Shown one piece after another: positions 1,078 to 45,052 of a stretch of DNA of 64,000 nt; positions within the stretch are counted from its first letter, which is position 1, and every line of letters begins with the position of its first letter. The notes beneath the pieces were generated by a model. It searched no databases, was not told the origin of the DNA, and saw only the letters and a program-made list of their open reading frames with translations. The position numbers were made by a program, and so were the translations under genes. The stretch lies in contig JAZKBK010000003.1 in NCBI GenBank assembly GCA_040388625.1, positions 372,001 through 436,000 of the forward strand. Direction: 5' to 3'. This stretch comes from Gemmatimonadota bacterium (lineage in GTDB: Bacteria > Gemmatimonadota > Gemmatimonadetes > Gemmatimonadales > Gemmatimonadaceae).

Positions 1078-3435
1078 TCAGGCTGCTACCGCGTGACTCG
1101 GAAAAGCACTGTCCAGAACCCCTCTGACACGCATGAACTCAGCTTCCATCTCGTCGATCAGCGTCCGCGCGCCAGCCGCATCGTGCTTCTGCCCGGCCCC
1201 TTGCAGCGCCGCGCCCAGCGCGGCCATGGTCGTCGCACCCATGTTACCGCTGCTGCCCTTGAGCGCGTGACCCGTGCGCTCGATCAGAGGCAGGTCCCCG
1301 GTATCCAACGCAGCGCGAAGGGTGACAATTCGGGACGAAGTGTCCGATATGAATGTTCCTATGAGGCGTAACACGAAGTCATCCCCGCCTTCCGCCATGG
1401 CTGCGAGATTATCCAACACGGACAGGTCAACTGATGATTGATCCATGGACCCCCCTGAATTGTCGAACTGGGCCGCAAGGGCCGCGACCAGAGCTGGATC
1501 GGCCGCGAAGGACGTCGCCGGACCGGATTCGGCGGGTTCGCGCTGTCTGGCCGTCCCAGTGAACAGATAGTCACTGGCATTCGGTGTTGAACTCTCGGCA
1601 CCCGGTTTCGAATCGCTCGGGATCCAGCATTCCATGGCAGTTTCGAGCTCTTCCAGCGCGATCGGCTTTGGAATGAAGCCGTCCATGCCTGCGTCCAGGC
1701 AGCGCGCACGATCCTCGCGCATTGCGTTCGCAGTCATTGCGATGATCGGCGTATGCCGATCCTGAGCATCCTCGCGTTGCCGGATCGCACGAGTAGCGGT
1801 GTACCCGTCCATCTCCGGCATCTGACAATCCATCAGCACAAGATCATACGGGAGCTGGGCGAGCATCGCGACAGCTTCCAGACCGTTGGATGCAATGTCG
1901 CAGCGATACCCGAGCTTGTTCAGCATGTGCGACGCTACACGCTGGTTTACCGGATTGTCCTCTGCCACCAGTACGCGCGCGCGAGCCTTGCTCTGTGCAC
2001 CGGCAACTCCCGTTTCCGCGACCCGTCGTACCTTGGGCGCGAGATCCGGATGGAGCACCGATCCGAGAACGCCAAGCAGTCGCGTGGGACGGACTGGCAG
2101 GGCGAAGGTGACGTCGATGCCCGCTCTGGACGCCGTGTCGGCGCTGGGCTTTTGCCGGTTTGGTGCCAGCGCGACAACGCCGCCGATGCCCTCGGAAAAT
2201 TCGCGGCGCAGATCCCGAATCGACCGAAGAGGATCGGAGCCCAGCGTGGATAGATCGGCGATCACCAGGTCGTACCGCTGACCGGCGGCGATGCTGGCGC
2301 GAAGCAAAGCGCGTGCATCGGCAACCGTGCGTGCACCATCCACGAATGCACCCCAATCTGCGGCGTAACGTCGGAGCACTACACGTGTGAGCTTGCCACG
2401 AACGAGTACCAGGACGCGTGAATCCTTCATCACGTTCGCGCTCGGCGTCGACATCACTCGTGGTCCCCGCTGCGCTGCGATCGTGAAGTGAAATACACTT
2501 CCCTCACCCGGAACGCTCGCGACGTCCATGGCGCCGCCGAGCAGGCCGACGAGATGCTTCGAGATCGCGAGTCCCAGACCGGTGCCGCCGTACTTGCGCG
2601 TAGTGGAACTGTCTGCTTGCTGAAACGGCTGGAACAATCGCGTTCGCGCTTCAGCGGTGAGACCGATGCCGGTGTCATTGACGTCGAATCGCAACTGCAC
2701 GCCTGCGTCGGTTTCCGACTCGACGGTCACGTGGATGTAGATACGACCGACGTGTGTGAACTTGATGGCGTTGCCTACCAGGTTCAGGAGAATCTGACGC
2801 AGCCGGCCCTGATCCGTGCGAACCACCGCAGGCACGCGCTCGTCGACATAGAAGCCGAGCTCCAGTTTCTTCTGCATCGCCTGATCGGCAAGCAGCTCGA
2901 CGACTTCCTCTACCGTCGTGCGAACATTGCAATCGATGATCTCGATCTCGAGTCGCCCCGCTTCGATCTTGGAGAAATCGAGAATCTCATTGATGATCGT
3001 GAGGAGCGCCTGTCCCGATGATCGAACCGTGTCGACGTACTCGCGCTGTTCCTGATTGAGTCCCGTGTCGAGGAGCAGTCCCGTCATGCCGAGAATGCCG
3101 TTCATGGGAGTACGGATCTCGTGCGACATGCGCGCAAGAAATTCGCTCTTGGCCTGGTTCCCCTGCTCGGCCTTCTCCATCGCCTCTGCCAGTTCGAGCG
3201 TGCGCTCACGCACCTTCTGATCCAGCCCCGAGAGGATCTGCTGCATCTCGCGCATGAGCGTCTCGCGCTCCGTGAGTGCACCACGGATGCTCTGTGCGTG
3301 GCCCTCGTCCACGCGAGTCGTTGCTGCTGCGGCAGCACCAGCAAGCTTGAGGCGTCGTACGTGTCGAGCGAGCATGACGACGAGAACCGCCTCGATCGAG
3401 ATGCCGAGCCCAAGAATCAGAACTGACGCATGCAC
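1078..3435 (-). CDS. Hybrid (BarA-type) sensor histidine kinase
   Basis: About 785 residues from a GTG start at 3435, which overlaps the end of the upstream cheZ-like gene. Order: one membrane helix (residues ~4-25), a coiled linker, HisKA with phospho-acceptor His105 in [12 protein letters not shown], HATPase with N box (LVGNAIKF), G1 (DTGIGL) and G2 (GGTGLGL), a degenerate first receiver (~335-460), a complete receiver with Asp536 in [12 protein letters not shown], and an Hpt domain with His723 in [13 protein letters not shown]. There is no periplasmic or PAS sensor domain. The first receiver lacks the acidic pair. A longer frame to 3600 lies over the neighbouring gene and adds only low-complexity sequence, so I rejected it. 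Location suggests a role in motility signalling (inference). Confidence 0.88.
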
Positions 3436-3457
3436 TTTGTAGCTGGCTCTGCGTGGG

Positions 3458-4135
3458 CTACTGCGTGGTCTTGCCGGAGTGATCGCACCAGAACAGCGCG
3501 TCGGCCGTGGCCTGACGCTCGAACGAGTTTCTCGTGGAGGCGGACTCGCTGAACGTTGGCAGCTGTTCGTTGGTGATGACAGCCGCTTCCGCACGACCAC
3601 CGGACAACAGCGACGACGTTGCGTGCAGCCGACGCTCTATGTCGCGGAGCATCTGCGCGACATGCCCCAGCTGTTGCGATGTGATGTCCTGAAACTGCAG
3701 CGAGCCCATGACGGCGAAGAGCTCATCGCGCATCTTGGCCCGTACGGCCGCTGCTTCGACGATCGAGTCGTCGAAGGATCCGGAGGCATCGATCTCATCC
3801 AGGCGGTCGACGTATGCATGTGCGCGTTCCAGGCCGTCCATCATGCGTGTGGCGGCGAGCTCAGTGGCGGAACACACCTCGCCAAGCTTGGCCGTGCTGT
3901 CGTGAATCTCCTGAAGGGTCACACCCTGGAGGGCTTCGCGACTCGTGTGGAGTGTGCACAGGACCTGTGCAATCTCGCCCGTGGCGCGTTGCATCATGGC
4001 GAGCAGCACGCCGACGTTGTTTCCGCGAAGGCCGGTATCCCGCCCGTCGTCACGCAGCTCTTCGAGCTCGCTGTCGACCAGGCGGAGCATCGTCTCGGAA
4101 TCGTAAAGGACTTCGGCGATGCGTGAGTTGGACAT
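3458..4135 (-). CDS. cheZ: CheZ-like CheY-P phosphatase
   Basis: A 225-residue, mostly helical protein directly downstream of cheY (6 bases between them). It carries the CheZ signature [10 protein letters not shown], in which Asp150 and Gln154 occupy the positions of the catalytic Asp and Gln of E. coli CheZ. The rest is long amphipathic helices, as expected for the CheZ four-helix bundle. The C terminus contains ATADALF, loosely like the CheY-binding tail of CheZ, but extra residues follow. Role: dephosphorylation of CheY-P to set motor switching. The family assignment rests on the short signature plus the neighbour; overall similarity to proteobacterial CheZ is low. Confidence 0.75.
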
Positions 4136-12019: not shown

Positions 12020-12057
12020 CGTATTGCTTTGCTCCTCGCAAAAGCGTATGCTGTGGA

Positions 12058-12085
12058 GTATCGAGCGCATGCCGCCCGCTCTTTA
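12058..12085 (-). promoter_or_regulatory. Candidate sigma-28 promoter of flgL-fliW
   Basis: On the minus strand: TAAA, 16 bases, CTCGATAC. The CGATA core and spacing match the flgM site, but the first two bases of the -10 differ from consensus. The start would be near 12051, ~32 bases before the flgL ATG. Confidence 0.45.
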
Positions 12086-12123
12086 GGCTCGAAGAAAGGG
12101 CGGACGCGTAGCCTGACAATTTT

Positions 12124-12151
12124 GGGGCGGGCACGGGGACCCGCCCCTACG
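12124..12151. repeat. GC-rich hairpin followed by TACG
   Basis: An 8-base perfect stem GGGGCGGG / CCCGCCCC with an 8-base loop, then TACG, in the divergent region between flgL and the sigma-54 activator. Similar hairpin-TACG elements occur at 9316 and 45069, suggesting a dispersed short palindromic repeat. Confidence 0.45.
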
Positions 12152-12184
12152 CCAACCATATCCGGACTCGTACTCTACCAAATA

Positions 12185-13627
12185 ATGGCAACCATTCTAT
12201 ATGTAGATGACGAGCCATCGGTCGGGTTGATACTGGAGGATACGCTACGGCGCGCCGGGCATGACGCTGTCGGCGCCCGGAATGTTCCGGAGGCTCTCCA
12301 GGCGTTGGCGCGTGGCAACGTGGATCTGATAATCTCGGACTACCGCATGCCAGGATTGACGGGCCTGGAGTTTCTGTCGCTCATCAGGCGCGAGGGGTAC
12401 GAGGTGCCTCTCATAATGTTGACCGGTTATGCCAGCATCGAGCACGCGGTGTCGTCGATCAAGGCCGGGGCGGTGGATTACATCACCAAGCCAGTTCGCC
12501 CGCAGCAGCTTGAGCTCGCCGTCGATCAGGCACTGAAGCTGGTTCGCCTCAAGAAGGAGAACGACGCGCTCAGGCGTGAGGTGATGGAGTTCCGGAACGA
12601 GCGCCAGATCGTGGGCGACAGCGTTGCCATTCGCCGGATAATGCAGACGGTCGCGACGGCGGCTCCTACGCGGGCGACGGTGCTGCTGCAGGGTGAGTCC
12701 GGTACGGGAAAGGAATTGTTCGCCCGTTCGGTCCACGACCAGAGCGACCGCCGTGACAGGCCTTTCATACAGCTCAACTGCGCCGCGCTGCCCGAGGGTC
12801 TGGTGGAGAGCGCGCTGTTCGGCCATGAGAAGGGCGCGTTCACGGGGGCGATCAAGCGCGTCGAGGGAGCATTCGAGCGCGCCAACCGTGGTACGCTCCT
12901 GCTGGACGAAATATCCGAGATGCGGCTGGACCTTCAGGCGAAGCTGCTGCGCGTGCTACAGGAGCAGGAGTTTGAGCGGGTTGGTGGCACGTCCACCATA
13001 CGGGTGGACGTTCGGATCATCGCGACGACGAACCGGGACCTGGCGGCCGAAGCCGCGCGTGGAGCGTTCCGGCAGGATCTATACTATAGGTTGAGCACGA
13101 TCCCGATCGCGATCCCGCCGCTGCGGGACCGAAAGGACGACATTCCAGCCCTTGCCTACAGGTTCGCGATCCGAATTGGCGCGGAGATGGGCAAGGAAGT
13201 GCGGGCGATATCGCAGGAAGGGCTCGAGGTCCTGCAAAGATACGACTGGCCAGGAAATGTCCGGGAGCTTCAGCACGTTGTGGAGCGGGCGGTGATCCTT
13301 TCGTCTGACCCAATCGTGCCGGCCCATGCGTTCGAGGGGCTCAGATTCGGGTTGGCCAACGTGCTCGCCGGCCCGGTATCGGCGACGCAACGGGCGCTGA
13401 TCGCTGCGGGACTGGTACCGATTCCGGACGACGACCGGGATGACGGAGTACTGGTGCGGTTGACCTCGCTGAATGTCGAGGATGCCGAGCGTGCGATGAT
13501 TCAGAAAGCACTCGAGATGTCGGGCAACAATCGCACGAAAGCGGCCGAATTGCTGGGGCTGAGTGTCCGGACGCTCAGGAACAAACTGAACGGTCCGGCG
13601 AACGGCGAGGCAAGCTTGACCCTGTAA
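12185..13627 (+). CDS. Sigma-54-dependent response regulator (FlrC/FleR/NtrC type)
   Basis: 480 residues from ATG at 12185, where the receiver begins (MATILYVDDEPS); the frame is open further upstream but carries no domain sequence. Receiver ~1-115 with Asp8/Asp9, phospho-acceptor Asp52 and Lys102. AAA+ domain ~140-375 with Walker A GESGTGKE (170-177), the sigma-54 contact loop GAFTGA (217-222) and Walker B LLLDEIS. A Fis-type helix-turn-helix at the C terminus contains NNRTKAAELLGLSVRTLRNK. It should bind enhancers and remodel sigma-54 polymerase. Three candidate sigma-54 sites precede the flgB, fliL and flgF operons, its probable targets. No cognate kinase is adjacent; the hybrid kinase or the orphan at 40616 are candidates. 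Confidence 0.93.
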   Translation: MATILYVDDEPSVGLILEDTLRRAGHDAVGARNVPEALQALARGNVDLIISDYRMPGLTGLEFLSLIRREGYEVPLIMLTGYASIEHAVSSIKAGAVDYITKPVRPQQLELAVDQALKLVRLKKENDALRREVMEFRNERQIVGDSVAIRRIMQTVATAAPTRATVLLQGESGTGKELFARSVHDQSDRRDRPFIQLNCAALPEGLVESALFGHEKGAFTGAIKRVEGAFERANRGTLLLDEISEMRLDLQAKLLRVLQEQEFERVGGTSTIRVDVRIIATTNRDLAAEAARGAFRQDLYYRLSTIPIAIPPLRDRKDDIPALAYRFAIRIGAEMGKEVRAISQEGLEVLQRYDWPGNVRELQHVVERAVILSSDPIVPAHAFEGLRFGLANVLAGPVSATQRALIAAGLVPIPDDDRDDGVLVRLTSLNVEDAERAMIQKALEMSGNNRTKAAELLGLSVRTLRNKLNGPANGEASLTL

Positions 13628-17036: not shown

Positions 17037-18098
17037 ATGGGAACCGCGGTAGTGCCGGTGGAAGAAAAGAAGAGTGTTGCGAAACTCACCGCTGCCGACC
17101 TGACCGGACCGCAGAAGGTCGCGGTGTTGTGCATGTCGCTCGGCGCTGATGAGGCGGTGAAACTGACGCAGTCGCTCACGCCTGAAGAGGCCGAGGAGAT
17201 CAGCTTCCATATCGCGCAGATGGAACAGGTGAGCGCCGGCACGGTCGAAGCAGTCCTGACCGAGTGGATGCAGATGGCACTTGCCGTTGACTCGATCGCC
17301 CAGGGCGGTATCAGCTACGCCGGTGAGGTTCTGGAAAAGGCGTTCGGCAGTCACAGAGCCAGCGCGACGCTGACGCGAATTCAGTCGCAGCTGGCAGACT
17401 CAGCTGGATTGCACCGGCTACGGAGCGCTGACCCGCAGCAGCTCGCGACGACGCTGCGCGGCGAGCATCCTCAGACTATCGCACTTGTTCTCGCTCATCT
17501 CGAGCCGCAACAGACCGCGACGATTCTGCGCGACCTGGATCCATCGCTCGGCGGCGAGGTGATGTACCGCATCGGCTGCATGGAAAAGGTGGCTCCTGAC
17601 ATGATGCTGCTGGTGGAGAAGGCTCTCAGTAACGAGACCGACCTCAGCTTTACTCGCGGCTTGCGCGCGGCTGGTGGACCGGATGCAGTTGCGAGCGTGC
17701 TCAACCATGTCTCGGGCTCGCTCGAGAAAGACCTGCTCGATCACATCGGCGAGCGGGACACGCAGCTTTGCGAGCAGATCAAGAACCTCATGTTCGTCTT
17801 CGACGACGTGGGCAAGCTGGACGACCGCTCGTTGCAGCGACTGCTGCGCGAAATCGACGCCCGTACTCTATCGCTGGCGCTCAAGACCGCAAAGGAAGAG
17901 ATGCGCGAGCGCATCATGGCCGGCATGTCGGCACGCGCGGTCACGGCGCTCAAGGAAGAGATATCGATGCTCGGCGCCGTTCGTGTCCGCGACGTGGAAG
18001 CGGCCCAGGCACAGATCGTCGCACAGGTTCGGGCGCTCGAAGCGGCCGGAGAAATCACCATCGGTGCCGGAGCCTCGGAAGATGCGTTCATCGAATAG
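17037..18098 (+). CDS. fliG: Flagellar motor switch protein FliG
   Basis: 353 residues, a normal length. N-terminal FliF-binding domain, middle domain with the EHPQ motif (RGEHPQTIALVLAHLEPQQT), and C-terminal torque domain with LMFVFDDVGKLDDRSLQRLL, containing the charged residues that meet MotA. Starts directly after the fliF stop. It sits at the cytoplasmic face and transmits stator torque; MotA and MotB are encoded at 41264-42974. Confidence 0.97.
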   Translation: MGTAVVPVEEKKSVAKLTAADLTGPQKVAVLCMSLGADEAVKLTQSLTPEEAEEISFHIAQMEQVSAGTVEAVLTEWMQMALAVDSIAQGGISYAGEVLEKAFGSHRASATLTRIQSQLADSAGLHRLRSADPQQLATTLRGEHPQTIALVLAHLEPQQTATILRDLDPSLGGEVMYRIGCMEKVAPDMMLLVEKALSNETDLSFTRGLRAAGGPDAVASVLNHVSGSLEKDLLDHIGERDTQLCEQIKNLMFVFDDVGKLDDRSLQRLLREIDARTLSLALKTAKEEMRERIMAGMSARAVTALKEEISMLGAVRVRDVEAAQAQIVAQVRALEAAGEITIGAGASEDAFIE

Positions 18099-24845: not shown

Positions 24846-25388
24846 ATGGCAGAAGAGAAACCATCAGAGAGTGAACAAGCCGCTGCGCCGGCCGCCAAGG
24901 GCGGGATGGCGAAGCTGCTGCCGCTGATAGGCGGCATTGTTGGAGGTCTCGCGCTTGGCGGGATCCTCGGGTTCACACTGCTCGGCCCCAAACTCTCGCA
25001 CAAGGCCACGGCTGCACCGGCTGCCGCGGACAGTGCGGCAACCGCCAAGAAGGACGCCGGGCCAGAGGCCAAAAAGGGCGACGCGCCGCCACCGATCTAT
25101 CAGGTGGACAACCTCGTAATGAATCCCGCTGGATCGGGCGGCTCGCACTTCCTGTTGATGTCGGTTGCGTTGCAGCTGAAGGATGCCAGCTCGCTCGAGG
25201 TCATCAAGGGACGTGACGCCGAGCTGCGCGACGCGATCCTCCGGCTCTTCTCGCGAAAGACCAGCGATCAGATCTCCGATATCTCGGCGCGCGATCAGTT
25301 CGCCGCTGAATTGATGGCTGTGCTCGACAGGATGTTCGGCGCCGGCACCGTGGCGAAGATCTACTTCCCTCAATTCGTAATTCAGTGA
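24846..25388 (+). CDS. fliL: Basal-body associated protein FliL
   Basis: 180 residues. A short cytoplasmic N terminus, one membrane helix (~22-45; LLPLIGGIVGGLALGGILGF), an Ala-rich linker, then the periplasmic FliL domain (~85-180) with YQVDNLVMNPAGSGGSHFLL and SVALQLKDASSLEVIKGRDA, ending YFPQFVIQ. FliL surrounds stators and supports torque. It opens the fliL-fliM-fliN-fliO-fliP-fliQ-fliR-flhB-flhA operon behind a candidate sigma-54 site. Confidence 0.93.
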   Translation: MAEEKPSESEQAAAPAAKGGMAKLLPLIGGIVGGLALGGILGFTLLGPKLSHKATAAPAAADSAATAKKDAGPEAKKGDAPPPIYQVDNLVMNPAGSGGSHFLLMSVALQLKDASSLEVIKGRDAELRDAILRLFSRKTSDQISDISARDQFAAELMAVLDRMFGAGTVAKIYFPQFVIQ

Positions 25389-26473
25389 GCGCCGATGCAC
25401 GCCCGATGGCATCGGGCACGCTCTCGCAGAGCGAGATCGACCGCCTGCTGGGTGGTGCGAGCAATGTTCCGTTCGCCGGCGCGTCGGAAGAATCGCCGGT
25501 TCAGATGTACGACTTCCGCCGCCCGCACCGCGTTTCCAAGGAGCGCCTTCGGACGCTGGAGGCGATCTACGAGAGACTGGTGAAGTCGCTCGAGAGCTGG
25601 GTGATTGGTCGTGTACGCGGACAGATCGAGATGCGGCTGCAGGGTGTCGAGCAGTTCTCGTTCGGCGAGTTCACGCTTTCGCTCCCGACGCCATGCGCGT
25701 CGTTCATCTGCGAGATCAACGACTCCGGCGGACAGCTGGGCGTCGTCGATATCGGTGAGGAGTTCGCCTTCTATATGGTGGACAGGCTGTTCGGCGGCAG
25801 TGGCCAGCAGATGTCGACATCGCGGCCGCTCACGCGTGTGGAGCGCATGGCGCTGCGCGGCCTGGTCGAAAAGGTAAACTCGCTGCTGGCTGAAGTCTGG
25901 TCCGACTACATAACGATGTCGCTCGAGATCAGCTCGTTCGAGTCGTTCCCCGATATTCTGCTTCAGAGCGCGAATCGCGACGATCCGGTTCTGGTCGCCA
26001 ACATCGAGGTGACAGCAGGTGACGTCAGTTCGCTGATGCTCGTGTGTCTTCCGTTCGCGGTGCTTGACAAGTTCTTCACCAACACGGCGACACGCAGCTT
26101 CGCGAATGCAACCGGTTCCGAGCACGAGCGCGCAGTCAGTCGTGCGCTTGCTGAACATTCGTTGCGTGCAACGCGCGTCAACGTATCCGCGCGGCTTCCT
26201 GAATTTCGCATGTCGATGCGCGACCTTGCCTCGCTGTCTCAGGGCGGTGTCATCACGACTGCGTTACCGAGCGACAGTCCCATCCGCGTCATGGTCGGCG
26301 ACCAGGAGCGTTTCGCCGGCACCGCCGGCCGCGTGGGCCACAAGCTCGCCATTCGCCTCGAGGGCGCCCTCACACAGTCGGGTGAAGTACGAGGTGCAGC
26401 ACCAGTTGTTCCACAATTCGATGCTTCGGTGATCGCCGAAGCGCTTCATACCCAACCGATCTCCGCCGAGTAA
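25385..26473 (+). CDS. fliM: Flagellar motor switch protein FliM
   Basis: 362 residues from GTG at 25385, overlapping the fliL stop as GTGA; an ATG at 25406 is the alternative. The N-terminal CheY-P-binding peptide LSQSEIDRLLGG is intact. The middle domain follows (RRPHRVSKERLRTLEAIYER; MVDRLFGGSGQQM), then a C-terminal SpoA/FliN-like domain. It forms the C ring with FliG and FliN and receives CheY-P; cheY is at 4142. Confidence 0.95.
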   Translation: MSADARPMASGTLSQSEIDRLLGGASNVPFAGASEESPVQMYDFRRPHRVSKERLRTLEAIYERLVKSLESWVIGRVRGQIEMRLQGVEQFSFGEFTLSLPTPCASFICEINDSGGQLGVVDIGEEFAFYMVDRLFGGSGQQMSTSRPLTRVERMALRGLVEKVNSLLAEVWSDYITMSLEISSFESFPDILLQSANRDDPVLVANIEVTAGDVSSLMLVCLPFAVLDKFFTNTATRSFANATGSEHERAVSRALAEHSLRATRVNVSARLPEFRMSMRDLASLSQGGVITTALPSDSPIRVMVGDQERFAGTAGRVGHKLAIRLEGALTQSGEVRGAAPVVPQFDASVIAEALHTQPISAE

Positions 26474-26474
26474 C

Positions 26475-26816
26475 ATGGATCAGAATGTGAACGTCGCCGC
26501 TGGCGCCGAGTCTGTCAACGCAGTGGACGCCGGATTTGCGGGCGTCAACAACGAAGTGCCCATCTCGATGCTGCTCGATCTCACGCTGCCGATCTCGATC
26601 GAGCTCGGCAGGACGTCGATGACCGTGCAGGACATCCTGCGTCTCGGACGCGGATCCGTAATTCAGCTGGATCGCCTCGCGGGCGAGCCAATCGACGTAT
26701 TCGTTGGAGATCGTCGATTTGCAGAGGGCGAGGTTGTTCTGTTGGGTGAGACGTTCGGCGTGCGCATCACGCGAATCCTCCCACGCGCCAATGCAGTCGA
26801 GGAAATCGCAGCGTGA
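26475..26816 (+). CDS. fliN: Flagellar motor switch protein FliN
   Basis: 113 residues. A short linker and then the SpoA domain: ISMLLDLTLPISIELGRTSM, LRLGRGSVIQLDRLAGEPID, and FAEGEVVLLGETFGVRITRI, all standard FliN. It starts 1 base after the fliM stop. It forms the base of the C ring and docks FliH-FliI. Confidence 0.96.
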   Translation: MDQNVNVAAGAESVNAVDAGFAGVNNEVPISMLLDLTLPISIELGRTSMTVQDILRLGRGSVIQLDRLAGEPIDVFVGDRRFAEGEVVLLGETFGVRITRILPRANAVEEIAA

Positions 26817-29404: not shown

Positions 29405-30520
29405 ATGGCTGATGACTACGGCGACAAAACAGAAGAAGCGACCCCCAAGAAACGTCAGGAAGCTCAGGACGAAGGACGCATCCCGAAGAGTCCTGAACTC
29501 TCGGTCGCTGTCCTGTTACTTGGAATCGCGCTCGTGCTGACCGCGATCGTGCCGCACGTTGCAAGCCGCCTGTTCGCCATCATGGGCGAGGGCCTCGCTT
29601 CTGCTGGTGACACGTCGTTCTCAGCGGAGAGCGCGATCAAGACTCTGCAGGCCCTCGGGTGGCGCACGCTATCCGCAATCATGCTCGTGGCGTCGGCGAT
29701 GGCCGGCATCTCGCTCGTCATCAATGCCGTGCAGGCTCGAGGTGTATTCTCGCTCAAGCCCATCACACCACAGTTCAAGCGCATCAGTCCCGCGTCCAAT
29801 GTCAAGCGTCTGGTCGGCATGCAGGCGCTCGTCGAGCTCGCGAAATCACTCTTCAAGCTCATCATCGTCGGCTTCGCGATACACGCCGCCCTTGGACGCG
29901 AAGCCATCAACGCGATCGTCGTCACCACTCAGCAGTCGCCGATTGCCCTGCTGCAGGTCGTCACGCACTACTCGGTCAAGCTCATCATGACCGCTGGACT
30001 GGCGTACCTGGCGCTCGCGTTGGCGGATTATCTCTGGCAGTACTGGCAGTTCTCAAAGGAAATGCGCATGAGCAAGGCGGAGATCAAGCAGGAGTTCAAG
30101 AACTCCGAAGGTGATCCTCTGCTCAAGCAGCGCATGCGCTCGATCGGCCGCGCGATGGCACGCAAGCAGATGCTCCGGGATGTGCCGAGTGCCGATGTCG
30201 TCATCGTCAACCCGACTCACCGCGCAATTGCGCTCAAGTATGATGCCTCCAAGGCGCCAGCGCCGATCGTCCTTGCCATGGGTCAACGCAAGGTTGCGGA
30301 GCGCATCAAGAAGATCGCGCTCGAGAACGGCGTTCCGATCGTCGAAAACCGTCCACTCGCAATCGCGCTCATCAAGCATGCTCGTGTGGGAATGGTGATT
30401 CCTGTCGAGCTGTATCTCGCGGTCGCTGAAGTTCTTGCATTCGTGATTCGCCAGCGGCATGAACGCGGCGCACGCTGGGCATATCGCCCGATATCGCATC
30501 TCGTTGGAGACACGGTCTGA
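29405..30520 (+). CDS. flhB: Flagellar export-gate switch protein FlhB
   Basis: 371 residues. N-terminal GDKTEEATPKKRQEAQDEGR, four membrane helices, then a cytoplasmic domain with the autocleavage motif NPTH (269-272) in VIVNPTHRAIALKYD. It self-cleaves between Asn and Pro and switches export from rod/hook to filament type when FliK signals; the FliK-like protein is at 21215. Confidence 0.97.
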   Translation: MADDYGDKTEEATPKKRQEAQDEGRIPKSPELSVAVLLLGIALVLTAIVPHVASRLFAIMGEGLASAGDTSFSAESAIKTLQALGWRTLSAIMLVASAMAGISLVINAVQARGVFSLKPITPQFKRISPASNVKRLVGMQALVELAKSLFKLIIVGFAIHAALGREAINAIVVTTQQSPIALLQVVTHYSVKLIMTAGLAYLALALADYLWQYWQFSKEMRMSKAEIKQEFKNSEGDPLLKQRMRSIGRAMARKQMLRDVPSADVVIVNPTHRAIALKYDASKAPAPIVLAMGQRKVAERIKKIALENGVPIVENRPLAIALIKHARVGMVIPVELYLAVAEVLAFVIRQRHERGARWAYRPISHLVGDTV

Positions 30521-32616
30521 TGGCGGCAATAGCAGCAAAACCGGTGACCACAACGGCAGCGCCCAGCAAGGGAGGCGCGGAAGTCGGACTCGCCGTAGCA
30601 GTCGTCCTCGTCATCGGCCTGCTGATCATTCCGCTGCCTGGCGTCATGCTGGACATGCTGCTCGTGACGAGCATCTCGCTCTCACTCGTAGTCCTGCTCT
30701 CGGCGCTGTACACGACCAACCCTCTCGAGTTCAGCTCGTTCCCTGGCCTGCTGCTGCTGCTCACGCTCTTCCGGCTCGCGCTCAACGTCGCGAGTACGCG
30801 ACTGATCCTGACGCACGGCCAGGCCGGACACGTCATTCAGGCATTCGGTGAGTTCGTGATCGGCGGCAACTACGCCGTCGGACTCGTGTTGTTCCTGATT
30901 CTCATCGGCATCAATTTCATCGTCATTACAAAGGGTGCCGGACGCGTCGCAGAGGTCGCTGCGCGATTCACACTCGACGCAATGCCGGGCAAGCAGATGG
31001 CGATCGACGCCGATCTGAATGCCGGGCTCATCGACGAGAACGAAGCACGCCGCCGGCGCGCCGAGATCTCGAGCCAGGCCGATTTCTACGGCGCGATGGA
31101 CGGCTCGTCCAAGTTCGTGAAGGGAGACGCGATCGCTGCGCTGATCATCACGTTCATCAACATCATCGGCGGAATATTCATCGGTGTCGTGCAGAAGGGC
31201 CTTCCCTTCTCGCAGGCAGTGAGCACCTATACAATCCTCACCGTTGGTGAAGGACTGGTATCGCAGATTCCGTCGCTGGTCGTATCGACGGCTGCCGGTA
31301 TCATGGTTACCCACTCTGCCGGCTCCACGCAGATGGGAACCGTCGTAGCGTCGCAGATGACGAGACACCCGCGCGCCATGTGGATCGCGGCCGGCGTGCT
31401 GGCGCTGTTCTCCGTTGTTCCAGGCCTTCCCATGCTGCCGTTCCTGTCGCTCGCCTGCATCCTCGGGATGCTTGCACGCGCGGCATCAGCGGCGGAAAAG
31501 AAGCGCGCGGCAACCGCCGTCTCCGCGCTGTCCGCACCGAAGTCCGAATCGCCAACGTCAACCGATCCGATGAAGGATCTGCTCCAGATCGATCCGATCG
31601 AGCTCGAGGTTGGCTACGCACTAATTCCACTCGTCGACGAGCGTCAGGGCGGCGATCTGCTCGACCGCATCTCCATGTTGCGCAAACAGGCGGCAGTCGA
31701 GCTCGGGATTCTCATTCCGCCAGTTCGCATCCGCGACGACATCAGACTGCCGTCGAACGAATACGTGATCAAGCTCCGCGGAAGCGAGATGGCTCGTGGT
31801 GAGGTCATGCCACGCTTCCTCATGGCGCTCAACACCGGCGCAGTGATCTCACCGATCGAAGGAATCGACGCGGTCGATCCGAGCTTCGGCATGCCTGCAC
31901 GATGGATCGCAACCAATCGTCGCGCGGATGCGGAAGCCTACGGCTACGTGGTCGTCGAGCCATCAACCGTCGTGGCCACGCATCTCATGGAAGTCCTGAA
32001 AGCGAATGCGGCCGAGTTGCTCGGACGCCAGGACGTTCAGGAGATGGTCGAGACACTCAAGAAGACGCATCCGGCACTGGTCGACGACATCGTTCCAACC
32101 AAGATCTCGCTCGGCACGCTGCACCGCGTGCTACAGCGTCTTCTCCGCGAGCGCATTCCTATCCGGGATCTCGTCACGATCCTCGAAGCGCTCGGCGATT
32201 CCGCCGACACCACCAAGGACCCGGAAGCGCTCACCGAGCACGTACGCCGATCGCTGTCGAACGTCATCGCGCGGTTGTACGCCGAACCGGATTCGTCGGT
32301 GCGCGGAATCACGATGGGGCCACGGTTGGAGCAGGCGCTTACAGGCCTCTTCTCACCGCGCACAGCGCAGCCTGGAGTATCGATGCTCAATCCGGACGCA
32401 CTCGCGAGAATGCTCCGGGATCTCAACGAGATGTCGCAGGCGTATTCGACGGAAGGACGTCCCATACCGCTCGTCACGCCGCCAAGTCTGCGTGTTGGCG
32501 TGCGGCGCCTCATCGAGCCGGTGCTTCCAGCGCTGCCGGTCATCTCGCTTGCGGAGCTTCCCACAGCGGTGAATCTGCACAGCGTAGGCATGTGGGAGAT
32601 GGCGAATGCCGCATGA
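30520..32616 (+). CDS. flhA: Flagellar export-gate protein FlhA
   Basis: 698 residues, normal length. Eight membrane helices in the first ~330 residues, with the FHIPEP motif region including LVVLLSALYTTNPLEFSSFP, LLLLLTLFRLALNVASTRLI and RFTLDAMPGKQMAIDADLNA. The C-terminal cytoplasmic ring domain binds chaperone-substrate complexes. The start codon overlaps the flhB stop (TGATG). FlhA forms the nonameric ring of the gate. Confidence 0.97.
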   Translation: MAAIAAKPVTTTAAPSKGGAEVGLAVAVVLVIGLLIIPLPGVMLDMLLVTSISLSLVVLLSALYTTNPLEFSSFPGLLLLLTLFRLALNVASTRLILTHGQAGHVIQAFGEFVIGGNYAVGLVLFLILIGINFIVITKGAGRVAEVAARFTLDAMPGKQMAIDADLNAGLIDENEARRRRAEISSQADFYGAMDGSSKFVKGDAIAALIITFINIIGGIFIGVVQKGLPFSQAVSTYTILTVGEGLVSQIPSLVVSTAAGIMVTHSAGSTQMGTVVASQMTRHPRAMWIAAGVLALFSVVPGLPMLPFLSLACILGMLARAASAAEKKRAATAVSALSAPKSESPTSTDPMKDLLQIDPIELEVGYALIPLVDERQGGDLLDRISMLRKQAAVELGILIPPVRIRDDIRLPSNEYVIKLRGSEMARGEVMPRFLMALNTGAVISPIEGIDAVDPSFGMPARWIATNRRADAEAYGYVVVEPSTVVATHLMEVLKANAAELLGRQDVQEMVETLKKTHPALVDDIVPTKISLGTLHRVLQRLLRERIPIRDLVTILEALGDSADTTKDPEALTEHVRRSLSNVIARLYAEPDSSVRGITMGPRLEQALTGLFSPRTAQPGVSMLNPDALARMLRDLNEMSQAYSTEGRPIPLVTPPSLRVGVRRLIEPVLPALPVISLAELPTAVNLHSVGMWEMANAA

Positions 32617-33160
32617 TCCGGGCGCGCCGCGAATCATCGTGGCGTCGGGCATGTCGGGGACCGGCGTCTCGTCGGTCAGCGCCTGTCTGCAGGATGCTGC
32701 ACCGGCCTTGAACGTCATCGACGCTGGATCTCGATGGGCGGACATTGCCGAAGCATGCGCACCGGGGTTCACGCGCATGATCGTCGTAACGACGCACGAC
32801 ATCATCGCGATCACGTCGTCCTACGCGTTGATCAAGATGGTGCGGGATCATTTCACGGATGCACCGCTCGAGTTGCTCGTCAACGCGAGTGAAGAGCGCG
32901 ATGCGCTCAAGACGTACGAGAGGATACAGGTGGCGTGCAGTCACTTCCTCGGCGAAACAGTCGGCTACGCGGGTTCCGTACCGACTGACTCTGGTGAGCA
33001 AGAACCTGGCGAGAACGACGCGATGAAACGGGCCCGTGCCGCACTCGGCACTACCGCTACCATGGCGATCCATAATCTCGCGACGCGATTGGATGAAGAA
33101 CTTGAAGCGACAGTGCTACGAGGCTCGTGGCGTCACGGTGAGCGAAGAGGAGTCCTATGA
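32606..33160 (+). CDS. FlhG/FleN-like protein with lost P-loop
   Basis: 184 residues overlapping flhA by 11 bases. The fold matches the MinD/FlhG family: an N-terminal strand and loop (IIVASGMSGTGVSSVSACL), then VVTTHDIIAITSSYALIKMV, which matches the TPE-A-TDAYALIK block of FlhG, then LLVNASEERDALKTYERIQV. In the loop, where FlhG has GKGGVGKSS, this protein has GMSGTGVSS: the signature Lys and the P-loop Lys are both lost, so ATP binding is unlikely. Family length is ~270-290, so it is also shorter. flhF, the usual partner, is absent. It may have kept only a protein-binding role. Confidence 0.75.
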   Translation: MPHDPGAPRIIVASGMSGTGVSSVSACLQDAAPALNVIDAGSRWADIAEACAPGFTRMIVVTTHDIIAITSSYALIKMVRDHFTDAPLELLVNASEERDALKTYERIQVACSHFLGETVGYAGSVPTDSGEQEPGENDAMKRARAALGTTATMAIHNLATRLDEELEATVLRGSWRHGERRGVL

Positions 33161-33921
33161 CAAAAATGGATATGCAGCTTTGGAAGGAATTTGCGCAGGG
33201 CAGCCAGGAAGCCCGCGATAGTCTCCTCGCCGAGCATCTCGGTCTGGTCCACCATGTCGCGCGGCAGTTGTCGCGCACACTCGCGGCGAAAGCCGACGTC
33301 GATGAGATGGTGAGCGCCGGCACAATGGGATTGATGAGCGCATTGTCGGGTTTCGACCCGTCGCGTGGACTCGCGTTCAGCACGTTCGCGGCTCCGCGGA
33401 TTCGCGGAGCGATTCTGGACGAGCTGCGGCGACAGGATCACGTCCCGCGCTCCGTTCGCCGCAAGGCGCGCGAGCTCTCCGGCGCTCGTGAAACACTCCA
33501 GCGCATCTTCGGCCGACCGCCCGAGCCGCAGGAGATGGCCGAGCACCTGGGCGTCGACGTCGCCACGCTCTGGCGTTGGGAAGCGGACGTCGAGAACGCG
33601 GTGCATCTCTCGATCGACCGTCAGCCGGGCGAGCCCGATTCCGGAATGGCCGCGCCGGCCGAGATGCTCGCCGACGAGACGCACGGCGATATCGAGGAAA
33701 CGCTCAACCATGAGCAGGAAGTCTCGCTTCTCCGGGACGCCATCATGGAGCTCAAGGAACAGGAGCGCGTGGTACTGTCGCTGTACTACTTCGAGGAGCT
33801 CAAGCTCCACGAAATCGCGTCGGTGCTGAACCTCACCGAGAGCCGCGTAAGCCAGATCCGCTCCAAGGCGCTAGGAAAATTGCGCACCGAGCTGGGCCCG
33901 ATGCGTAGCTTCGTCGCCTGA
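33157..33921 (+). CDS. fliA: RNA polymerase sigma-28 factor FliA
   Basis: 254 residues, start overlapping the previous gene stop (ATGA). Region 2: HHVARQLSRTLAAKADVDEM, MSALSGFDPSRGLAFSTFA. Region 3: FGRPPEPQEMAEHLGVD. Region 4 with the helix-turn-helix LHEIASVLNLTESRVSQIRS. It reads TAAA-N15/16-GCCGATAA-type promoters; candidate sites lie before fliC, flgM and flgL. It is inhibited by FlgM (4544). Last gene of the fliL operon. Confidence 0.97.
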   Translation: MTKMDMQLWKEFAQGSQEARDSLLAEHLGLVHHVARQLSRTLAAKADVDEMVSAGTMGLMSALSGFDPSRGLAFSTFAAPRIRGAILDELRRQDHVPRSVRRKARELSGARETLQRIFGRPPEPQEMAEHLGVDVATLWRWEADVENAVHLSIDRQPGEPDSGMAAPAEMLADETHGDIEETLNHEQEVSLLRDAIMELKEQERVVLSLYYFEELKLHEIASVLNLTESRVSQIRSKALGKLRTELGPMRSFVA

Positions 33922-42974: not shown

Positions 42975-43066
42975 CGCCGAGTGCACCATACGCGCACAAC
43001 AGGTGTCTGATATGCACTGGCCGGGAACATTCGGCGGTGCATATTTCGTATGAGGAGCGAAACCCG

Positions 43067-45052
43067 ATGCCCGATCCAACGTACACTCGCGAGCAGGAAT
43101 TCGAGGATGTCCAGCGAGCGCTAGCGGGACAGTACTCGCTTCATCGCGAACTGGGCCGCGGTGGAATGGGCGTGGTGTATCTCGCGCGCGAGGTCGAGCT
43201 GGATCGATTCGTCGCGATAAAGGTGCTTCCGGCAGCGCTCGCGCTTCGCGCCGACATGCGCGAGCGGTTCATGCGTGAGGCACGCGCATCCGCGCGGCTT
43301 TCGCATCCCAACATCGTGCCAATCTTCCGCGTTGGCGAGCAGAACGGCGTCGCGTTCTTCTCGATGGCATATGTCGACGGCGAATCACTCGGCGAGCGAC
43401 TTCGTTCGCGCGGCGTTCTGCCCCCTCGCGAAGTGACTCGCATTCTCCGTGATGCCGCGTGGGCGCTCGCGTATGCGCATGCCCAGGGCGTCGTGCATCG
43501 TGACGTCAAGCCCGACAACATCCTTATAGAGCGTGACAGCGAGCGAGTGTTCGTCACGGACTTCGGGATCGCCGCTGTTGAAGATGCAGCGACGGCCATT
43601 ACGGGGGCACACGAGGTCGTCGGGACCGCGCAGTACATGTCGCCGGAGCAGGCGTCGTCGGGCGCAATTGACGGACGCGCGGATCTGTATTCACTGGGCA
43701 TCATAGGATTTCTTGCCACTACAGGTCGGCTTCCATTCGATGGCAGGACTGCCGCAGTTGTCATCGCCAAGCAGGTATCGGAACCCGCACCATCGATGGC
43801 GCGAGAGACCGGGGTTCCGGCGCAGCTTGCCGCAGTGATCGACAGAGTTCTGCGCAAGGATCCCGCCGAGCGATTTGCCAACGGTGAAGCGATGGCCGAG
43901 GCGTTGAGCGAGAGCACGATCCCGACACGCCGGCTGCCGCCCGCGCTGCGACTCTGGGTGGACAATCGCGATCCGATGCGTGTGCCGTACAGCGCGTGGT
44001 CCTTCGCATTTGGTTTCGGGGCGGTGGTGACGATTGTTCGCGGTCATTCCGGTTGGCTTCCGCTGATCGGGATGGCTGCATTGCCACTCATTCCGCACCT
44101 GATCTTCCGCGCGCGTCAAACACGACGCGTGTTGAGTGCGGGACATGGTGTGGAAGACATGCAGTTCGCGCTGGCCGAGGTCAACGATCGCCGACGGGAG
44201 GAGATGAGCATCGAGCTGCACGAGGGGCAGACGCCGGCGCTCAAGTTTCTGCGGGCGATCACGACTGCGGTCGTGGTGGCCGACGTCGGACTCGTCATCG
44301 GCGCGCAGAGTGTCTCGAACGCGTTCCTCAAGGCATTCTATCAGAACCATACCATCGCGATGCGTGCGGGTTTCGCGGCAGCCGTTCTACTGCCGCTCAT
44401 TCTGATTCCGATGAGCATGGCGCTCGGCGTACCATTGCTCGGCCGCCGATTCAAGAACTTCAATTCCGGGACGTTGCGCGAGCGGTTGTGGAACAGTCGC
44501 GTCGGCATTGCGATCGCAAAGTGGCTTCGCCCGAAAAACACCAGGCCGGCAGCCGCGTTCGTGTCGCAGCCCACCGAAGTCGCGCTCGGCAGCGCGGCGG
44601 GCAATCTCTTTACTGCATTGCCGCAGACCGTTCGCGATCAGTTTCCGGAATTGCCCAGCGTCGTGAGCGGGCTCGAAGCTCACGCTGCCAAGTGCAGAGT
44701 CAGGATTCAGGAACTGGATCGGTTGTACAACGAGGCGATCAACGACACCGCAATCTCGCGGCTTCGCGGTGCCGATCCATTGAGCGAGGACACGAGTATA
44801 TCAGCGCAGCGCAAGCAGACCGTGGATGAGCTCGACGCTGCGCGCGGAATTGCACGAGCTGATCTGGCGCACACGGTGGCCGCACTGGAATCGATACGAC
44901 TCGATCTTCTCAAGATGCACGCTGGCGGCGATGCGTCGCGCCAGATCGCTACGTCGATCGAAGCGGCGCGTGAGCTCAAGCATGGACTGGAGCTCGCGCT
45001 CTCGGCGAAGCATGAAGTGAGCTCGATATTGCGACCGTCGGCTGCCGAGTAG
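43067..45052 (+). CDS. Membrane Ser/Thr protein kinase (PknB type)
   Basis: 661 residues from ATG at 43067, with GAGGAG upstream; an ATG at 43037 lacks one. Kinase domain ~22-285: glycine loop ELGRGGMGVVYLA, Lys52, catalytic HRDVKPDN (Asp146), DFG (165-167), and GTAQYMSPEQA. Several hydrophobic segments (~310-470) form a membrane region, followed by a soluble helical tail. The N-terminal layout before the kinase is common in Gemmatimonadota. Substrates unknown. It is not tied to the flagellar operons except by position after motB. Confidence 0.93.
   Translation: MPDPTYTREQEFEDVQRALAGQYSLHRELGRGGMGVVYLAREVELDRFVAIKVLPAALALRADMRERFMREARASARLSHPNIVPIFRVGEQNGVAFFSMAYVDGESLGERLRSRGVLPPREVTRILRDAAWALAYAHAQGVVHRDVKPDNILIERDSERVFVTDFGIAAVEDAATAITGAHEVVGTAQYMSPEQASSGAIDGRADLYSLGIIGFLATTGRLPFDGRTAAVVIAKQVSEPAPSMARETGVPAQLAAVIDRVLRKDPAERFANGEAMAEALSESTIPTRRLPPALRLWVDNRDPMRVPYSAWSFAFGFGAVVTIVRGHSGWLPLIGMAALPLIPHLIFRARQTRRVLSAGHGVEDMQFALAEVNDRRREEMSIELHEGQTPALKFLRAITTAVVVADVGLVIGAQSVSNAFLKAFYQNHTIAMRAGFAAAVLLPLILIPMSMALGVPLLGRRFKNFNSGTLRERLWNSRVGIAIAKWLRPKNTRPAAAFVSQPTEVALGSAAGNLFTALPQTVRDQFPELPSVVSGLEAHAAKCRVRIQELDRLYNEAINDTAISRLRGADPLSEDTSISAQRKQTVDELDAARGIARADLAHTVAALESIRLDLLKMHAGGDASRQIATSIEAARELKHGLELALSAKHEVSSILRPSAAE

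Follow-up and report, generated by a model that had tools for sequence, protein, structure and literature searches.

Which protein occupies the place of flhG in a flagellar locus that encodes no FlhF, when its own P-loop has lost both lysines? This question is raised by a 184-amino-acid open reading frame (ORF) in the window, by which we mean the whole 64,000-nucleotide stretch of DNA that was analyzed, from a Gemmatimonadota genome (G000) of 3.84 Mb that is 99.3% complete. A preliminary description had put the ORF in the flhG position, and Pfam confirmed flhA and fliA on either side of it (Table 1); the ORF overlaps these neighbors by 11 and 4 nt, respectively. The surrounding cluster is a standard flagellar set that includes fliF, fliG, fliI, flgD, flgE, fliL, fliM, fliN, fliO, fliP, fliQ, fliR, flhB, flgI, flgK, motA, and motB. 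The flagellar rod genes are directly preceded by a gene for a sigma-54 activator that carries a receiver domain, and motAB is directly followed by a serine/threonine kinase gene.

Table 1. Features of the flagellar locus in the window
Feature	Positions	Strand	Basis
Truncated, K-less (lysine-lacking) FlhG homolog, 184 aa, ATG start	32606..33160	+	homology, alignment, fold
Degenerate P-loop GMSGTGVSS, residues 15-23	32648..32674	+	alignment with FlhG
Junction of ~91-residue deletion, which spans beta2 to alpha4 of FlhG and takes out switch I (LLIDxD)	32702..32710	+	alignment
Retained Walker B strand NVIDAG, residues 36-41	32711..32728	+	alignment
YALIK block, residues 73-77; K77 aligns with GtFlhG K177 (FliY binding)	32822..32836	+	alignment
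Most conserved part within the genus, residues 97-127, holding R106 and F114	32894..32986	+	93% pairwise identity
flhA	30520..32616	+	Pfam PF00771 (FHIPEP), E 5.8e-262
fliA-type sigma factor	33157..33921	+	Sigma70 r2/r3/r4 (regions 2, 3, 4) and place after flhG
fliG	17037..18098	+	PF01706/14841/14842
fliM	25385..26473	+	PF02154
EIDAL-type motif of FliM	about 25433..25450
fliN	26475..26816	+	PF01052
Sigma-54 activator with receiver domain	12029..13627
Serine/threonine kinase	43037..45052

Searches of Pfam and NCBIfam with the 184-aa protein returned no matches. In a search of 60 related genomes, the ORF was found in all four genomes of its genus (72 to 99% identical; in one of them it is broken by a contig end), and it is therefore not a sequencing artifact. 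Matches to FlhG-type proteins came from about 18 related genomes outside the genus, with E values down to 3.5e-18. An AlphaFold2 prediction based on 39 aligned sequences (mean pLDDT, 82.8; pTM, 0.79) gave a core of five strands, most of which has a pLDDT of about 95. The prediction also places a C-terminal helix at residues 149 to 176; FlhG itself forms an ATP-dependent homodimer and has a membrane-targeting helix at its C terminus. Foldseek returned FlhG (4rz3/4rz2) as the best PDB matches (E, 4.4e-9), with FleN next. The family block around ALIK, noted in the preliminary description, is kept as YALIK. By sequence and fold homology, and by its place in the neighborhood flhA-(flhF)-flhG-fliA, the ORF belongs to FlhG and is a genuine descendant of flhG.

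The loss of both P-loop lysines was borne out by the alignment, in which M16 occupies the position of the signature lysine and V21 that of K36 of FlhG from G. thermodenitrificans (GtFlhG), so that the deviant Walker A motif KGGxGK[ST] is absent from the 184-aa protein. Alignment with six full-length FlhG proteins also disclosed a clean gap of about 91 residues, common to all four genus members, which extends from the end of the post-P-loop helix to just before the Walker B strand; switch I and its LLIDxD aspartates are consequently gone. The protein also lacks the N-terminal FlhF-stimulating helix (DQAxxLR), and the NR motif in this genus reads NA or TA. The K36A variant of GtFlhG cannot bind ATP (PMC12327844), and ATP binding by the 184-aa protein is predicted from its sequence to be absent.

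The lysine loss had been presented as the distinctive event at this locus, a view that did not hold once relatives were checked. Among 68 FlhG proteins of flagellated family members, the nucleotide-binding lysine position is occupied by T in 46, A in 15, V in 6, S in 1, and K in none, and the signature position holds K in 25 and R in 30. All six FlhG proteins from f4 and f5, two further families in the class, also lack the nucleotide-binding lysine, and every sampled FlhG of the genus Gemmatimonas (g23) reads GRGGxGxx, without either lysine, and adjoins an FlhF with an intact GPTGxGKT motif. Only the order-mates f2 retain GKGGVGKS, in nine of nine FlhG proteins. Sequencing error as a cause is ruled out by recurrence in dozens of genomes. 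In an FlhG tree made by a quick method, all K-less FlhG proteins form one clade (73 rows; SH-aLRT, 99). FlhA separates f1, f2, and f4/f5, and a single loss of the nucleotide-binding lysine therefore fits the gene tree, although f2 is labeled as the same order as f1; two losses or a transfer are possible alternatives. K-less FlhG is mostly still accompanied by FlhF. What distinguishes the window's genus is that the internal deletion is combined with the loss of both FlhF and the helix that activates it.

Two further variants were seen among these relatives. In the FlhF-negative loci L100 to L104 of genus g24, a diverged FlhG of about 230 aa has the P-loop GEEGVGAS or similar and has lost the Walker B aspartate, and it still keeps the K177-equivalent lysine. 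In genome G033, a K-less FlhG-like gene (L086, C1 at about 1900600) lies about 34 kb from flhA (L089, C1 at 1934699), outside the usual operon, and no FlhF was found at the locus. We found no published description of a K-less FlhG or of any Gemmatimonadota FlhG in a search that covered mostly freely accessible papers.

An alternative is that the protein is not a pseudo-ATPase but a variant ATPase that still binds nucleotide in an unusual, lysine-free way. The P-loop residues G18, G20, and S/T22 and the Walker B residue D39 are kept; full-length K-less relatives that have FlhF retain the switch I aspartate in 40 of 52 cases and the Walker B aspartate in 51 of 52; and NCBIfam contains a family with a KGGVGR variant, so that variant P-loops do exist among ParA-type proteins. 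In the genus of the window, however, the deletion has removed switch I, neither lysine remains, and the NR motif is altered, and the K36A result with GtFlhG also argues against nucleotide binding; we consider a variant ATPase quite unlikely here. Since much of the rest of the site is retained in the full-length relatives, those proteins could still bind nucleotide residually or in an unusual way; such binding would be much less likely in the window's genus.

FlhF had been reported missing from the locus, and the whole-genome search agreed: with the SRP54 profile, only Ffh and FtsY (the latter identified by TIGR00064) scored above the cutoff in this 99%-complete genome. The sub-threshold SRP54 matches, considered as a hidden FlhF, were all ABC transporters. 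A true FlhF/FlhG pair elsewhere in the genome, which would have undermined the preliminary description, was looked for and not found. Nor was a second FlhG or MinD found in the genome: the ParA-type proteins examined were of the Soj/ParA and Mrp types with a normal GKGGVGK[ST] motif, and an FlhG profile search matched only the window gene and an 872-aa frame. This frame and two other weaker ParA-type matches (405- and 546-aa open frames) were rejected as FlhG because they are far too long.

Flagellated relatives without FlhF at the locus comprise g1, g14, g15, most of g24, G029, and G033. Because the TIGR03499 cutoff misses the FlhF of this family, most of which matches the model only at positions of about 190 to 286, presence was scored on the locus DNA; a few FlhF proteins of g20 were found only by local search. 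The family's FlhF proteins are short, at about 270 to 290 aa (for example, L069, reverse strand, 2735-3586), and from this length and the partial match to the model they probably lack much of the N-terminal FliG-interacting part.

In FlhG, a Q-bearing N-terminal helix (DQAxxLR) stimulates FlhF (PMC12826062). None of the 17 FlhF-negative rows has this helix, and 51 of the 65 FlhF-positive rows keep it. The association rests on about four independent changes in FlhF, for which a tip-paired sign test cannot reach significance, and we therefore regard it as a consistent pattern and not as a significant test. FlhF is present beside an FlhG without the Q-bearing helix at L058, L034, L030, L043, L045, L046, L071, L090, L091, and L093. 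The FlhF-FlhG pair may have become uncoupled before FlhF was lost. The reciprocal case is seen in genus g4 (L069, L060, and L035; G006, G131, and G132), where flhF has intact GTP-binding motifs and FlhG was not found; at L069, fliA is preceded only by a stretch of a different kind, about 100 aa in length.

What the protein has retained is best judged against GtFlhG, in which changes at K177, R207 (printed once as 277), and F215 abolish binding to FliY, a binding that is independent of ATP (PMC12327844). Through the 4rz2 alignment, V21 corresponds to K36, K77 to K177, R106 to R207, and F114 to F215; the numbering takes the chain index minus 8, the difference being taken as an added tag, and all four residue types then agree with those of PMC12327844. 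All three C-ring-binding residues are thus present in the sequence of the 184-aa protein. The K177 equivalent is K in all 66 family members that cover the position, and the F215 equivalent is F in 56, W in 9, and L in 1, so that 65 of the 66 have F or W; the R207 equivalent is kept in the window's genus and is unconserved in the rest of the family. Set against the Walker A lysine, kept in none of 68, these counts show that the ATP site decayed and that the C-ring surface did not. By this alignment, the 184-aa protein has kept the predicted flagellar-motor-binding surface. FlhG of monotrichous bacteria binds the N terminus of FliM (PMC12826062), and the N terminus of FliM in the window (LSQSEIDRLL) carries an intact EIDAL-type motif.

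The ORF is under purifying selection, with a dN/dS of 0.09 to 0.20 between species of the genus at a dS near 1. In the same comparisons, flhA and fliA have a dN/dS of about 0.03; the ORF evolves about 3 to 7 times faster, and part of it may therefore be relaxed. This faster evolution could indicate that the ORF is a decaying remnant, left after loss of the FlhF-FlhG switch, whose sole remaining role is to bridge translation from flhA to fliA, as might also be read from the overlaps with both neighbors, the long stem branch (1.62 changes per column), and the lack of any Pfam or NCBIfam family match. We think this rather unlikely, since such a remnant would not be expected to show these dN/dS values across species, to be kept in all four genus members, to have a confidently predicted fold, or to be 93% identical at residues 97 to 127, where the P-loop part is 69% identical.

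The explanation that we hold to be on balance probable, if only just, is that the ORF encodes a nucleotide-free, FlhG-derived, monomeric C-ring adaptor that binds FliM (or FliN) and was left after the loss of FlhF. In the FlhG of Gemmatimonadota, the lysine that binds ATP would first have disappeared from the deviant Walker A motif; the window's lineage would then have lost FlhF, together with the FlhF-stimulating N-terminal helix of FlhG, and its FlhG would have shed the ATP-dependent half (switch I, beta2 to alpha4), an order of events that we infer from the comparisons above. The remainder would be a five-stranded core with the FliM/FliY-binding surface, consisting of the YALIK lysine, the HFLG phenylalanine, and, in this genus, the R207 equivalent. 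It would bind, as a monomer, to the N-terminal EIDAL-type motif of FliM (or to FliN) and aid the docking of FliM/FliN onto FliG. Neither a dimer driven by ATP nor a membrane cycle would be involved, and FlhF would exert no control; in this way the protein might affect flagellar assembly and number. The preliminary description had seen in a nucleotide-free FlhG a new variation on the FlhF-FlhG system; the nucleotide-free state is still the best reading, whereas the lysine loss itself is family-wide and often accompanies an intact FlhF.

A partner other than the C ring can also be envisioned, in that the protein could still act as a transcriptional regulator whose target is FliA or an NtrC-type activator, much as FleN binds FleQ. 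The adjoining fliA gene, the sigma-54 activator gene in the window, and the FleN-FleQ complexes among the best Foldseek matches would all suit such a role. However, the link between FlhG and FlrA/FleQ is known only in monotrichous flagellates (PMC12826062), and a Vibrio FlhG mutated at the ATP site no longer holds the master regulator FlaK in check (PMC7226244), and we regard this role as unlikely.

For the proposed adaptor, there are also findings that point the other way, among them the faster evolution of the ORF and the poor conservation of R207 beyond the genus. In Vibrio, a Walker A mutation inactivates FlhG and leads to hyperflagellation (PMC7226244), and the assays in which FlhG was reported to drive FliM/FliY/FliG assembly in vitro contained ATP and lipids (PMC12327844); an ATP-free form might therefore be inactive. 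Since the 184-aa protein lacks four features of the FlhG ATPase (the lysines, switch I, the enhancer helix, and the FlhF partner), we refer to it as an FlhG-derived protein and not as an FlhG ATPase. In C. jejuni, the ATPase domain of FlhG is reportedly dispensable for number control, which we mention as a lead only.

More tentatively, and as something that we consider possible but not quite probable, an entire clade within the Gemmatimonadota may assemble its flagella with an ATP-independent FlhG: the lysine would have been lost in the ancestor of the clade and C-ring binding kept, FlhF would later have become dispensable in some lineages, and a minimal nucleotide-free adaptor would have arisen in the window's genus. 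G. phototrophica is reported to have a single flagellum (PMC9862903), and its own FlhG, to judge from the genus, would have a GRGGxGxx P-loop. If the proposal is true, the ATP cycle of FlhG would not be needed for correct flagellation, as in G. phototrophica with its single flagellum and a genus whose sampled FlhG proteins lack both lysines. ATP-driven dimerization of FlhG is described as part of flagellar counting and placing, yet the function of the dimer has been called enigmatic (PMC12327844). These bacteria offer a natural separation-of-function series, from FlhG with FlhF and lysines (f2), through FlhG that has FlhF and lacks the ATP-binding lysine (Gemmatimonas and relatives) and FlhG without FlhF (g14 and g15), to the minimal core of the window's genus, which has neither, and this series would let the role of ATP binding be separated from that of C-ring binding in partly culturable organisms.

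Variant-P-loop ParA-type proteins (NCBIfam NF047398, the KGGVGR variant) resemble the 184-aa protein in belonging to the ParA/MinD superfamily without a canonical Walker A lysine; unlike it, they have no known flagellar link, and a K-less Gemmatimonas FlhG scores 21.5 bits, far below the 90-bit cutoff of this family, while the window-type protein gives no match. The K-less Gemmatimonadaceae FlhG proteins, including those of Gemmatimonas, share the lost Walker A lysine (GKGGVGTS, GRGGSGTS), the retained C-ring residues, and a single FlhG clade, but they are full length, and most have the N-terminal helix and a neighboring FlhF with the GTP-binding motif GPTGAGKT. With the MinD-type ATPases FlhG/FleN/YlxH (4rz2, 4rz3, and 5j1j), the 184-aa protein shares the flhA-fliA position, the fold, the YALxK and xFLG blocks with their C-ring-binding residues, and the Walker B aspartate; it differs from them in lacking both P-loop lysines, switch I, about 91 residues, and the FlhF-stimulating helix, in a genome where FlhF is absent. 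In conclusion, decay of the FlhF-FlhG switch extends across an entire family of Gemmatimonadota, and the 184-aa protein is its most extreme case.
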